This document shows, piece by piece, positions 5,354 to 19,262 of a stretch of 64,000 bases of DNA. A model generated the notes under the pieces. That model did not search any database and had not been told where the DNA came from. It saw only the letters and a program-made list of their open reading frames with translations. Numbering within the stretch: the first letter of the stretch is position 1; each line of letters begins with the position of its first letter. The translations under genes and the position numbers were made by a program. Source of the stretch: Thermoplasmata archaeon (GTDB taxonomy: Archaea > Thermoplasmatota > E2 > DHVEG-1); NCBI GenBank assembly GCA_020054475.1, contig JAHWGJ010000001.1, positions 58,434-122,433 of the forward strand, read 5' to 3'.

Positions 5354-5815
5354 ATGAAAAATAAAAATTTAGATGAAATAGATATAAAAATATTAAGAAC
5401 ACTACAAAAAAATGTAAGGACTCCTTTTAAAGAAATTGCAAATCAATGTAATATTTCTATGGATACAATAAAAAGTAGATACAACAAAATGATGAAAAAT
5501 GAAGTAATTCGAGGTAGTACAATTGTAGTAGATCCAAAAAAAATGGGTCAAGGAAACTTAGTAATAATAGGGATTAAAATTGTACAACAATTCTCTGATT
5601 TGGTTATGAATATCATTAAAAAAATGAAAGGATTATGTGTTGTTACAAAATCAATTGGACAGTATGACATCGAAGCAATATTTTTATTAGAAGATATTGA
5701 ACAAATTGGAATAATAAAAGATAAAATTGAAGATTTTCCTCAAGTAAAAAGCGCTGATGTCGGTATTTTTGTAGATAAACCTTTGTTATGTCCAAAAAAC
5801 TTTGAATTTGAATAG
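5354..5815 (+). CDS. Lrp/AsnC family transcriptional regulator
   Basis: LDEIDIKILRTLQKNVRTPFKEIANQCNISMDTIKSRYNKM plus RAM domain. Confidence 0.9.
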   Translation: MKNKNLDEIDIKILRTLQKNVRTPFKEIANQCNISMDTIKSRYNKMMKNEVIRGSTIVVDPKKMGQGNLVIIGIKIVQQFSDLVMNIIKKMKGLCVVTKSIGQYDIEAIFLLEDIEQIGIIKDKIEDFPQVKSADVGIFVDKPLLCPKNFEFE

Positions 5816-6274
5816 ATGATAAATATGAATTTAGATAAAATTGATACTACAATATTAGAAATTTTAGAAAAAGATGCTAGGACATCATTCAGAGAAATTG
5901 CAAGAAAGCTAGATGTGTCTCCTGATACAATAAGTAAGAGGTTTCAAAAGCTAAAAGAATTAGGTATTATAGTTGATTCAACTGTCATAATTAATCCTAA
6001 AAAAATTGGTTATTCGTTCATTTCTCGTTTTGGAGTTGATGTTAAACCAGCCTATTCATCACAAGTTCTTGAAGAAATAATTAAAATTCCAAGTGTAATT
6101 GTCGCTTCAAAATTAGTAGGAAAATATGACTTAATTTCTATTATCGTAGTAAAAAATTTTCAGCATCTATGTGAACTAAGAGAAATCATCTTAGAAATGC
6201 CATATGTTGAGAAAGTAGAGGCAAGTATGTGGATTAATACTATGGAATTATGCCCATGCTATTTTCTAATCTGA
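5816..6274 (+). CDS. Lrp/AsnC family transcriptional regulator (tandem with previous)
   Basis: LDKIDTTILEILEKDARTSFREIARKLDVSPDTISKRFQKLKELGII plus RAM domain; immediately adjacent to the upstream Lrp gene. Confidence 0.9.
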   Translation: MINMNLDKIDTTILEILEKDARTSFREIARKLDVSPDTISKRFQKLKELGIIVDSTVIINPKKIGYSFISRFGVDVKPAYSSQVLEEIIKIPSVIVASKLVGKYDLISIIVVKNFQHLCELREIILEMPYVEKVEASMWINTMELCPCYFLI

Positions 6275-6366
6275 ATGATAAAATATATGAGAAAATAATA
6301 GGAAAATATTAGCTAATAAATATGTATTAAAAACACCCGGAATTTGATGTCCCTCAAGATTAAGAA

Positions 6367-6520
6367 ATGAAAATATGGCGTTATTTGGATTTTACAAAAT
6401 TTTTATCTTATCTAGATAAAAAGGCTTTATTTTTTACCAGAGCTGATAAATTAGATGATATATTCGAAGGTAAGTTTACTGATGCATGTTTGGATGATTT
6501 CTATAATCCGCCCATTTTTT
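6367..6520 (+). pseudogene. Truncated N-terminal fragment of a DUF2971-like gene
   Basis: MKIWRYLDFTKFLSYLDKKALFFTRADKLDDIFEGKFTDACLDDFYNPP; resembles a DUF2971 N-terminus and then loses it at the junction with the next module. Confidence 0.5.
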
Positions 6521-6525
6521 ATCCG

Positions 6526-6768
6526 TTATCCCTCGTAATCTGGATGGATTTTTTCTTTGAATTCATGTCTCATTATTTCTGAAAAAACAATAGCATTGCA
6601 CAATTCACAATCACCTGTTAGGTATCTATCTGCAACTGCCATTATTTCTTTTTGTGATAATCCTCTATTCATTGCATTTTGTATACAAGTTGTAATTTGT
6701 TTTCTTGCCCTTTGAAAGTTTTTTACACATTTTCCAAATTCTATTTGTAATTCATTCATATTTATCAA
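6526..6768 (-). CDS. CMD-like small protein (80 aa), paralog of 18375-18617
   Basis: 73 of 80 residues identical to the 18375-18617 product by direct reading; helical NRGLSQKEIMAVADRYLTGDCELCNAIVFSEIM. Confidence 0.65.
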   Translation of the reverse strand: MINMNELQIEFGKCVKNFQRARKQITTCIQNAMNRGLSQKEIMAVADRYLTGDCELCNAIVFSEIMRHEFKEKIHPDYEG

Positions 6769-6823
6769 TGGATGATATGTTTTTTAAACTATTATAAAAT
6801 GTCTACGAATTGCACATCTTATA

Positions 6824-6839
6824 TCATCACTCTTCATCA
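6824..6839 (+). promoter_or_regulatory. Candidate operator: TCATCA-N4-TCATCA, 10-bp period
   Basis: Same arrangement as 12061-12076 and 18673-18688. Confidence 0.5.
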
Positions 6840-6882
6840 TTTATTCGAATATTTAAAAAAGTATTTTTTTTTACTATTGGAA

Positions 6883-6947
6883 ATGATGGAGGAATTAGGT
6901 TTTTCTTTAAACAATGAATCTTAAAAAATATTGATTTAAGAGTTTCT
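6883..6947 (+). pseudogene. Decayed 5' remnant of an RHH-type gene (paralog of 18732-19262)
   Basis: ATG ATG GAG GAA TTA GGT TTT TCT TTA AAC AAT GAA TCT TAA (MMEELGFSLNNES*) versus MIERLSISLNNESSKII; TCA to TAA. Confidence 0.7.
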
Positions 6948-11645: not shown

Positions 11646-11957
11646 TCAATCTATCTCTTTACAATCGTCTATTACTGAGATATAGGGTGTTCTCTTATTC
11701 TCTTCATATCTTATTGCTCGTAAAAGCTCTACTATTGTATTGAAAATTTTTTTATCTCGAATAACAAATGATGCTACTTTACAAATATCTTCACATGTTG
11801 CTCCCGCATCAAAAGTTTTCCTAACTTGATCAGCTATAGCATTAATCTCCCCATATCGCAAAATATTTCCCAATAATACAAGTTCTTTTCTTTTATCGTC
11901 TAATATTTCAAGATTGAATATTCCAGGCATCTTTAAACTTACAAGTACTTGATTCAT
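11646..11957 (-). CDS. CMD-like small protein, divergent partner of the 12113 RHH gene
   Basis: NAIADQVRKTFDAGATCEDICKVASFVIRDKKIFNTIVELLRAIRYEE; no CxxC pair. Confidence 0.65.
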   Translation of the reverse strand: MNQVLVSLKMPGIFNLEILDDKRKELVLLGNILRYGEINAIADQVRKTFDAGATCEDICKVASFVIRDKKIFNTIVELLRAIRYEENKRTPYISVIDDCKEID

Positions 11958-12060
11958 ATTTTGTTATATCACAAATATTTATTTTATGAAAACAAATATT
12001 AAAAGCTATTTACTATAATATATTAATATCAAATATACAAGATTATATATTATTCAAAGA

Positions 12061-12076
12061 TCATCATTTATCATCA
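12061..12076 (+). promoter_or_regulatory. Candidate operator: TCATCA-TTTA-TCATCA, 10-bp period
   Basis: Conserved in position and spacing with two paralogous modules. Confidence 0.5.
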
Positions 12077-12112
12077 TTTTATTTATAAAGGATTTAAACA
12101 TTATAATCTACT

Positions 12113-12640
12113 ATGAAAAGATTATGTGCATATTTTGATGATGAATCAACAGCTATTATTGAAAAATATGAAAAAAAATATGGTGGATCAACTGCAGCAC
12201 TTCTTAGGAGAGCTCTTCAATGCTTGAAAAATCATGAAGAAGCCCAAGAAAAAACACCCTGGGAGAATATTATAGCTTATGTAGATTTCTTAGCTTGCAT
12301 GGAACATGTAATAGTTGATATTGCACATTGGAAATCAATATTTACAGAGATTGGTGAAGGGTCTGAAAAATTTTGGGAGGAAATACGTATAATAGGTGAA
12401 GAACATACTAAGGAATATTACGACAAGGGATTAAAAAATATAAAAGAAATTTTAGAATATGTTGAAAAGACGAATTGGTATAAACTTAGTATTGATTCAG
12501 ATACTAGTTTTACTTTGATATTAGCTGTCTCTGAGTCTAGTGAATTTGTCAAGAATTTTTTTCAAGGATTTTTTAAAAATTATTCCAGAAAAGTTGAAAT
12601 TATCGAAGATTATAAAAAAATTCGAATTAGATTGATTTAA
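12113..12640 (+). CDS. Putative RHH regulator with unassigned C-terminal domain
   Basis: MKRLCAYFDDESTAIIEKYEKKYGGSTAALLRRALQCL (RHH-like); C-terminal region clearly paralogous to 18732-19262. Confidence 0.7.
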   Translation: MKRLCAYFDDESTAIIEKYEKKYGGSTAALLRRALQCLKNHEEAQEKTPWENIIAYVDFLACMEHVIVDIAHWKSIFTEIGEGSEKFWEEIRIIGEEHTKEYYDKGLKNIKEILEYVEKTNWYKLSIDSDTSFTLILAVSESSEFVKNFFQGFFKNYSRKVEIIEDYKKIRIRLI

Positions 12641-12850: not shown

Positions 12851-12941
12851 TATAAGTTCCCTTTCAACCCCCAAAAAAAAATCAGTATAATCCAACATAT
12901 AAATGTGTTTAATTGTTTATATTAAATTATATTCATGTATA

Positions 12942-13031
12942 TTAATTCCTTTTTGCTACTCCACAACAAGGGCAATAATATTCATCCCCATCTTTTGTTT
13001 TCATCATTCCATATCCACAATCACAAATCAT
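12942..13031 (-). CDS. Zinc-ribbon microprotein (29 aa)
   Basis: MICDCGYGMMKTKDGDEYYCPCCGVAKRN, preceded by GGAGGGAG. Confidence 0.65.
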   Translation of the reverse strand: MICDCGYGMMKTKDGDEYYCPCCGVAKRN

Positions 13032-13449
13032 TTTTCTCCCTCCATTCTCTAAAACAATTATCATCACAGAAAATTTTTTTTTTGTAAACTGTTGCTGTTA
13101 CTAAATTTAATTTCATCCTACAATATTTACATTTCATCCTGTAATAAATTAATAAAATAAAAGATATAAACCTGATTAATACTTTGTATTAAATTATATT
13201 AAAATATATTCAATATAACAACATAGCAACAAAAAAACAAACCTGAATAAATTAACTTATAACTTAATCATTTTTTTTTGCATAAAAAAATTAGTAAAAC
13301 AAATATAAATAAAATAAAAAACAAAGATTGTATACAAATTTCAATTATAGCAAATATCTCATATAAAATTATCTTTGCTAATTCCATAGGAACTCCTTTA
13401 ATTTATTAATAAAAAAAAAATATTGATTCAATAATGAAATATATTTAGA

Positions 13450-18374: not shown

Positions 18375-18617
18375 CTATGTTTCATAATCTTCATGGATTT
18401 TTTCTTTGAACTCATGTTTCATTATCTCTGCAAATACAATAGCGTTACATAATTCACAGTCACCTGTCAAGTATCTATCTGCAACTGCCATTATTTCTTT
18501 TTGAGATAATCCTCTATTCATTGCATTTTGTATACAAGTTGTAATTTGTTTTCTTGACTGTTGAAAGTTTTTTACACATTTTCCAAATTCCTTTTGTAAT
18601 TCATTCATATTTATCAA
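18375..18617 (-). CDS. CMD-like small protein, divergent partner of the 18732 RHH gene
   Basis: Near-identical to 6526-6768 product. Confidence 0.65.
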   Translation of the reverse strand: MINMNELQKEFGKCVKNFQQSRKQITTCIQNAMNRGLSQKEIMAVADRYLTGDCELCNAIVFAEIMKHEFKEKIHEDYET

Positions 18618-18672
18618 TGGGTGATGTGTTTTTTTAACTATTAAAAAATATTTGCGAATTTTAAATCATGTA

Positions 18673-18688
18673 TCACCACATTTCACCA
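18673..18688 (+). promoter_or_regulatory. Candidate operator: TCACCA-CATT-TCACCA, 10-bp period
   Basis: Same spacing as the two other modules; 43 nt from the ATG, as in the 6883 copy. Confidence 0.5.
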
Positions 18689-18731
18689 TTTATCCCAATA
18701 TTTAAAAAGTATTTTTTTAATACTATTGGAG

Positions 18732-19262
18732 ATGATAGAGAGATTAAGTATTTCTTTAAACAATGAATCTTCAAAAATAATCCAAAAATATTTGCCAAAA
18801 TATCAAGGTTCAAAAGCTGATTTAATTCGTAGGGCATTGATTTATTTAGATAAATGTGAAGAAATTCAAGAAACTGTTGATTTTAAAACAATTGAAGCAT
18901 ATATTGATTATTTAGGTAAACTTGAACACGTTATTGTTGATATATCCCATTGGAAAGTTATTTTTAATGAGATAGGTACTGGATCAAGTAAGTTTTGGGA
19001 TGAGATATATAGAATAGGTGAAGAGCATCGTAAAGAATATTATGATAAAGGAATAAGAAATATTCGTATGGTGTTAGAACATGTTGAAAAAACAAATTGG
19101 TATAAGTTAAATGTAGATTCTGAAGATTGTTATACTTTAATTCTTACAGTTACTGAAGCAGGTAAATTTGTTAAGAATTTCTTAACAGGTTTTTTCAAAG
19201 ATTATCCCAGAAAGGTTGAAATTAGTGATGAAGGTAAAAAAATTCGGATTAGAGTAATTTAG
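18732..19262 (+). CDS. Putative RHH regulator with unassigned C-terminal domain, paralog of 12113-12640
   Basis: MIERLSISLNNESSKIIQKYLPKYQGSKADLIRRALIYL; shared HVIVDI.HWK.IF.EIG.GS.KFW.EI..IGEEH.KEYYDKG. Confidence 0.7.
   Translation: MIERLSISLNNESSKIIQKYLPKYQGSKADLIRRALIYLDKCEEIQETVDFKTIEAYIDYLGKLEHVIVDISHWKVIFNEIGTGSSKFWDEIYRIGEEHRKEYYDKGIRNIRMVLEHVEKTNWYKLNVDSEDCYTLILTVTEAGKFVKNFLTGFFKDYPRKVEISDEGKKIRIRVI

Follow-up and report, generated by a model that had tools for sequence, protein, structure and literature searches.

A tandem 10-bp direct repeat as a candidate operator of RHH genes in Thermoplasmatota

In a 64,000-nucleotide stretch of the genome of a Thermoplasmata archaeon (the window), two genes for RHH regulators are preceded by a short tandem direct repeat, lying in intergenic regions shared with divergent small genes. 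An earlier note read this repeat as a conserved operator. The question is whether it is a genuine element and, if so, which protein would bind it.

Results

Copies of the repeat and their chance expectation

The pattern TCAYCA-N4-TCAYCA (TCAYCANNNNTCAYCA) has three exact matches in the window, all on the plus strand and all in divergent intergenic regions. They are the three sequences that had been noted, and there are no others:

6824 to 6839, plus strand: orphan site TCATCA-CTCT-TCATCA, a paralogous copy left after RHH loss
12061 to 12076, plus strand: tandem direct repeat TCATCA-TTTA-TCATCA, 36 nt before an RHH ATG, conserved in the orthologous locus G004/L013
18673 to 18688, plus strand: tandem direct repeat TCACCA-CATT-TCACCA, 43 nt before an RHH ATG and just upstream of AATATTTAAAAA

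The chance level in the window is 0.06 matches (mean of 100 dinucleotide shuffles), and none of the 100 shuffles reached three. The period is exactly 10 bp, as had been claimed, and it is the entire decamer that repeats, being TCATCATTTA followed by TCATCATTTT at 12061, with a two-decamer consensus of TCAYCAYNTW TCAYCATTTW.

The whole assembly (1.68 Mb) holds five exact matches, these being the three in the window, one on contig C10 and one on contig C11 (L002), whereas the reversed pattern, used as a control, has none. Since the shuffle rate predicts about 1.6 exact matches genome-wide, the raw count is unremarkable, and it is the position and conservation of the sites that are striking. In this genome scan, the check suggested in the earlier note, four of the five matches are in these divergent regions and the C11 match is inside an open reading frame; the RHH paralogue on contig C26 has no site. 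Allowing one mismatch adds 45 sites; those inspected are mostly coding, and none of them is an operator-like site beside another RHH gene. A wider regulon was considered and rejected, both genome scans having given almost solely coding matches.

The RHH proteins and their divergent partners

Two complete divergent gene pairs carry the repeat:

11646 to 11957, minus strand: CMD-like (carboxymuconolactone-decarboxylase-like) small protein, 103 aa, several homologues of which match Pfam CMD
12113 to 12640, plus strand: RHH regulator, 175 aa, group I, with an N-terminal RHH and a C-terminal alpha/beta sensor-like domain
18375 to 18608, minus strand: divergent 77-aa protein, distantly CMD-like, with its ATG start at 18608
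18732 to 19262, plus strand: RHH regulator, 176 aa, group II

The two RHH proteins are 60% identical. Pfam RHH_1 (PF01402) is matched by seven of the 13 family members (best 4e-7); the sole Pfam match of the window protein P0002 is DUF6290, below the cut-off (E 7.7e-4), and the weak PDB sequence matches include CopG proteins. The monomer model has helices at residues 11-24 and 28-44, with the strand unassigned, and a mean pLDDT of 82, rising above 90 over most of residues 90-176. The C-terminal 110 residues of both proteins form an uncharacterised alpha/beta domain with invariant H66, D70, W89, H99 and N122-W123 (P0002 numbering). Weak Foldseek matches of the model include H-NOX and Bet3/TPC6 (TM about 0.33-0.39, E 4e-3 to 1e-2, ranked below designed proteins). 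Given that the TM values are this low and that Pfam profiles gave no V4R match in the RHH family, the likeness to a V4R/Bet3/H-NOX ligand-binding fold is to be taken as a lead.

Among homologues of P0005 there are Pfam CMD matches (best 1.1e-5), and the two divergent partner families align with each other with an hhalign probability of 90; on these profile comparisons both partner families are small helical proteins of CMD-like type. It is worth adding that four other loci (L072, L073, L074 and L078) encode proteins of about 140-190 aa with two tandem P0003-like domains, some of them beside TauE-like transporters or malic enzyme. The motif might have been a property of the CMD-like gene rather than of the RHH gene, but this was rejected: the site is absent at the CMD-like homologues without an RHH neighbour that were searched (L084, L085 and L091).

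A duplicated region and the number of independent sites

The regions 6533-6930 and 18382-18779 and a region of contig C10 are paralogous copies with 88-90% DNA identity (BLAST), the homology stopping about 16 codons into the RHH gene. The first copy contains:

6526 to 6759, minus strand: intact paralogue of the divergent 77-aa protein, dN/dS 0.13 against 18375-18608 (NG86)
6883 to 6930, plus strand: RHH gene remnant of about 16 codons with stops, where homology to the 18732 gene ends

The remnant at 6883 reads MMEELGFSLNNES*KILI* and that on C10 MAERVSISLNN*SSKI, where the intact gene at 18732 starts MIERLSISLNNESSKIIQKY. The site at 6824 is therefore a duplicate of that at 18673, and the counting of 6824, 12061 and 18673 as three independent sites was rejected; on the homology of the copies, the independent promoters with a site are two, those of the 12113 and 18732 genes. 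The earlier statement that the repeat stands upstream of each RHH gene is true at 12061 and 18673, but 6824 precedes only the stop-riddled remnant. Likewise, the equal gap of 43 nt reported for two copies exists at 6824 and 18673, but because it was inherited from one duplicated region; the gap at 12061 is 36 nt. Among the group II duplicates the motif is conserved to no greater degree than the sequence around it, which counts against an operator. The 77-aa gene beside the orphan site is, as judged from its divergence from the 18375-18608 copy (dN 0.055, dS 0.41, NG86), under purifying selection.

The segmental duplication (window 6486-6930 and 18382-18779; C10 21050-21440, L001) comprises the divergent promoter and the 77-aa gene, with the RHH gene truncated after about 16 codons. 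In the C10 copy part of the interior of the small gene is deleted, and an adjacent fragment (6292-6484) lies in inverted orientation. The cation diffusion facilitator gene at 1747-2970 of the window also has a duplicate on C10 (L001 1908-3016), near the RHH-derived fragment, and such a gene adjoins an RHH homologue in another genus (L016). Elsewhere in the window, two 68-bp direct repeats with 76% identity lie at 12876-12943 and 13143-13210, in an AT-rich, gene-poor stretch.

Conservation in another genus

The orthologue of the 12113 gene in another genus of the same family (G004/L013) is syntenic and likewise divergent from a CMD-like gene. Its promoter contains TCATCATTTTTCATCA, with the identical 36-nt gap to the ATG, and in register this is a perfect tandem decamer, TCATCATTTT TCATCATTTT. 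The repeat lies within a conserved footprint:

12051 to 12088, plus strand: 38-bp block TATTCAAAGATCATCATTTATCATCATTTTATTTATAA, identical at 35/38 positions in the orthologous promoter

Outside this block the orthologous intergenic regions are identical at only 58/113 aligned positions, and in 200 shuffles no 38-mer matched at more than 27 positions. Of all the evidence for a function of the element, we give most weight to this footprint, obtained from comparison of the two promoters. It also bears on the simplest alternative, that a direct repeat arose by chance in AT-rich intergenic DNA and segmental duplication gave it the look of a recurrent element. Two of the three copies in the window, like that on C10, are indeed duplicates, and about 1.6 exact matches are expected genome-wide, but at the shuffle rate the probability that the two RHH intergenic regions contain an exact match is only about 3e-4, and the site is kept at equal distance in the orthologue of another genus. 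Chance is thus a very improbable explanation.

Among 45 genomes of the family, 24 of the 29 occurrences inspected outside the window genome lie inside open reading frames; the other five are at start codons, in doubtful coding regions or beside unrelated genes, and none of these five adjoins an RHH gene. Searches at class and phylum level gave no further group I or II orthologues; the small number of carriers, two independent promoters and one intact orthologue, counts against an operator. A further locus (G008, L018), in which the RHH and CMD-like genes are both broken, was not counted: it has TCATCA, TCACCA and TCATCA at +0, +7 and +20, with no 10-bp pair.

Association with a subclade of RHH genes

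The third RHH paralogue of the same genome (C26:4772-5293) belongs to group III. The pattern TCAYCA-N4-TCAYCA is absent from its promoter and from those of its group III relatives. These genes are divergent from an RHH-NuoE-like fusion or placed elsewhere, and their promoters have in common only the AT-rich promoter block of the divergent gene and their own TATA region. In the RHH tree, group III forms a clade with strong support (100/99). The RHHs that carry the motif are placed outside this clade, which agrees with a single origin but has weak support (58/28). The missing site at the third RHH counts against an operator; RHH operators of this kind in general need not precede every paralogue.

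At seven group III loci (L008, L012, L014, L015, L025, L026 and L028) there is a different, conserved repeat with an 8-bp period near the start codon of the RHH-NuoE-like fusion (TGTTTAACGGTTTAACA, also TGTTAAACAGTTAAACA), which is possibly the operator of that other RHH.

A cis-element tied to the RHH gene, as the earlier note proposed, is therefore well supported, by the footprint in another genus, by its absence where there is no RHH neighbour and by its absence from the other RHH clade. The repeat is a real, conserved cis-element, correctly noticed but overcounted, the three copies amounting to two independent promoters.

Promoter architecture

The repeat at 12061 is just upstream of the TATA-like sequence TTTATAAA (about 12082-12089). 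Such boxes lie, on inspection of the sequence, about 27-29 nt from the RHH ATG, as expected in leaderless archaeal promoters, and the RHH promoters look leaderless. The repeat falls between the RHH promoter and that of the divergent CMD-like gene. The distance from the end of the repeat to the TATA-like box is about 5 nt at 12061 and about 10 nt at 18673, a difference that counts against an operator. A block like ATTAAAARNTATTTRCGAA is common to most RHH divergent regions across different partners (e.g. window about 18640-18660, and L013), and was not seen at L030/L031; it probably represents the divergent gene's core promoter, though it is wide enough to hold a shared site.

Another explanation is that the repeat belongs to an extended core promoter, or to a DNA-shape element consisting of T-rich tracts phased at 10 bp, with no specific operator. 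The element abuts BRE/TATA in all copies, the footprint of the 12061 region continues into TTTATAA, and the flanks too are T-rich in the 10-bp register. However, the orthologue keeps the C residues of TCAYCA in both half-sites, and the T/C change that sets 18673 apart from its paralogues occurs in each half-site at the same position. The other RHH promoters have TATA-like boxes of their own but not the element. On this evidence we consider a purely structural or core-promoter role improbable.

Discussion

If the element is an operator, the nearest candidate to bind it is the adjacent RHH protein. MetJ, Arc, CopG and NikR are RHH regulators that bind cooperatively to repeated subsites, NikR having in addition a C-terminal sensor. 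Their subsites are palindromic or pseudo-palindromic and have spacings other than that seen here, and no NikR C-terminal domain is recognisable in the RHH proteins described here. Closer parallels exist. F55, an archaeal viral RHH from Sulfolobus spindle-shaped virus 1 (SSV1), binds tandem ATAGATAG repeats next to BRE/TSS, its own promoter included, and archaeal viral RHH regulators that bind beside BRE/TSS and oligomerise toward it repress transcription (PMC5569661). F55 differs in being viral, of 6.3 kDa and without a sensor domain, in its repeat sequence, and in that its binding is experimental, whereas here we infer it. The RHH protein omega of pSM19035 binds non-palindromic WATCACW direct repeats that overlap promoters, that of its own gene included (PMC9499535); these parS heptads of omega/ParB have a 7-bp period, number 7-10 and serve plasmid partition, as against two clear repeats with a 10-bp period here. 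What characterises such operators, subsites that recur at a constant interval in the promoter of the regulator itself, is found at 12061, at 18673 and in the G004 orthologue, and conservation is above background (the 35/38 against 58/113 between genera).

These precedents of F55 and omega, together with the one-turn spacing and the position, make an autoregulatory operator shared with the divergent gene the best explanation. We propose, with a probability of roughly 0.6, that the tandem 10-bp repeat upstream of BRE/TATA is bound by the adjacent RHH protein and serves autoregulation and control of the divergent CMD-like gene. Because there is one decamer per helical turn, the half-sites are on one face of the DNA, which fits two RHH dimers binding cooperatively. 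Bound dimers would block TBP/TFB recruitment or polymerase, giving negative autoregulation and at once controlling the divergent gene. By analogy with the precedents repression is likelier than activation, although a position upstream of BRE/TATA would also permit activation. The C-terminal domain, with its weak resemblance to the H-NOX/Bet3(V4R) ligand-binding fold, may act as the sensor, and the orphan sites at 6824 and on C10 are perhaps still controlled in trans by a surviving RHH paralogue.

The main competitor keeps the element as a genuine operator or upstream activating site but assigns it to a different transcription factor (e.g. of the Lrp/AsnC or winged-helix type) that controls the RHH and CMD-like genes. 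RHH dimers have two-fold symmetry and as a rule recognise pseudo-palindromic subsites, so that the asymmetric TCAYCA counts against an RHH reader and better suits tandem HTH monomers; a site upstream of BRE/TATA is in the typical activator position in archaea; and two ORFs at 5354-6274 are, as judged by eye, AsnC/Lrp-like. Moreover, the predicted DNA-contacting strand residues are R-C-Y/N in group I and R-S-S in group II, both with the motif, yet group III proteins have R-S-S as in group II and no motif. The strand residues thus do not track the motif, which implies either recognition through other RHH residues or a site read by another factor. Against another factor, there are almost no other intergenic sites genome-wide even with one mismatch, and hence no sign of a wider regulon, and presence of the motif follows the RHH subclade and the RHH neighbour. 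We consider a different reader unlikely, and RHH autoregulation remains the leading, ordinary, though unproven, explanation.

A more far-reaching version, for which we would argue only tentatively, is that these proteins are a lineage-specific archaeal one-component sensor family, combining RHH with a V4R/H-NOX-like domain and using a non-palindromic 10-bp tandem operator, in which duplication of operator and target, with loss of the regulator, has left orphan targets controlled in trans by the remaining paralogue.

To our knowledge, very few transcription factor-site pairs are established for uncultured Thermoplasmatota. The repeat provides a concrete and testable candidate operator for an uncharacterised RHH family of this group, and the duplicated region shows in miniature a natural case of a regulatory circuit losing its regulator after duplication. 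If the proposal is right, the result would be useful and unsurprising: an ordinary control element in a little-studied group.
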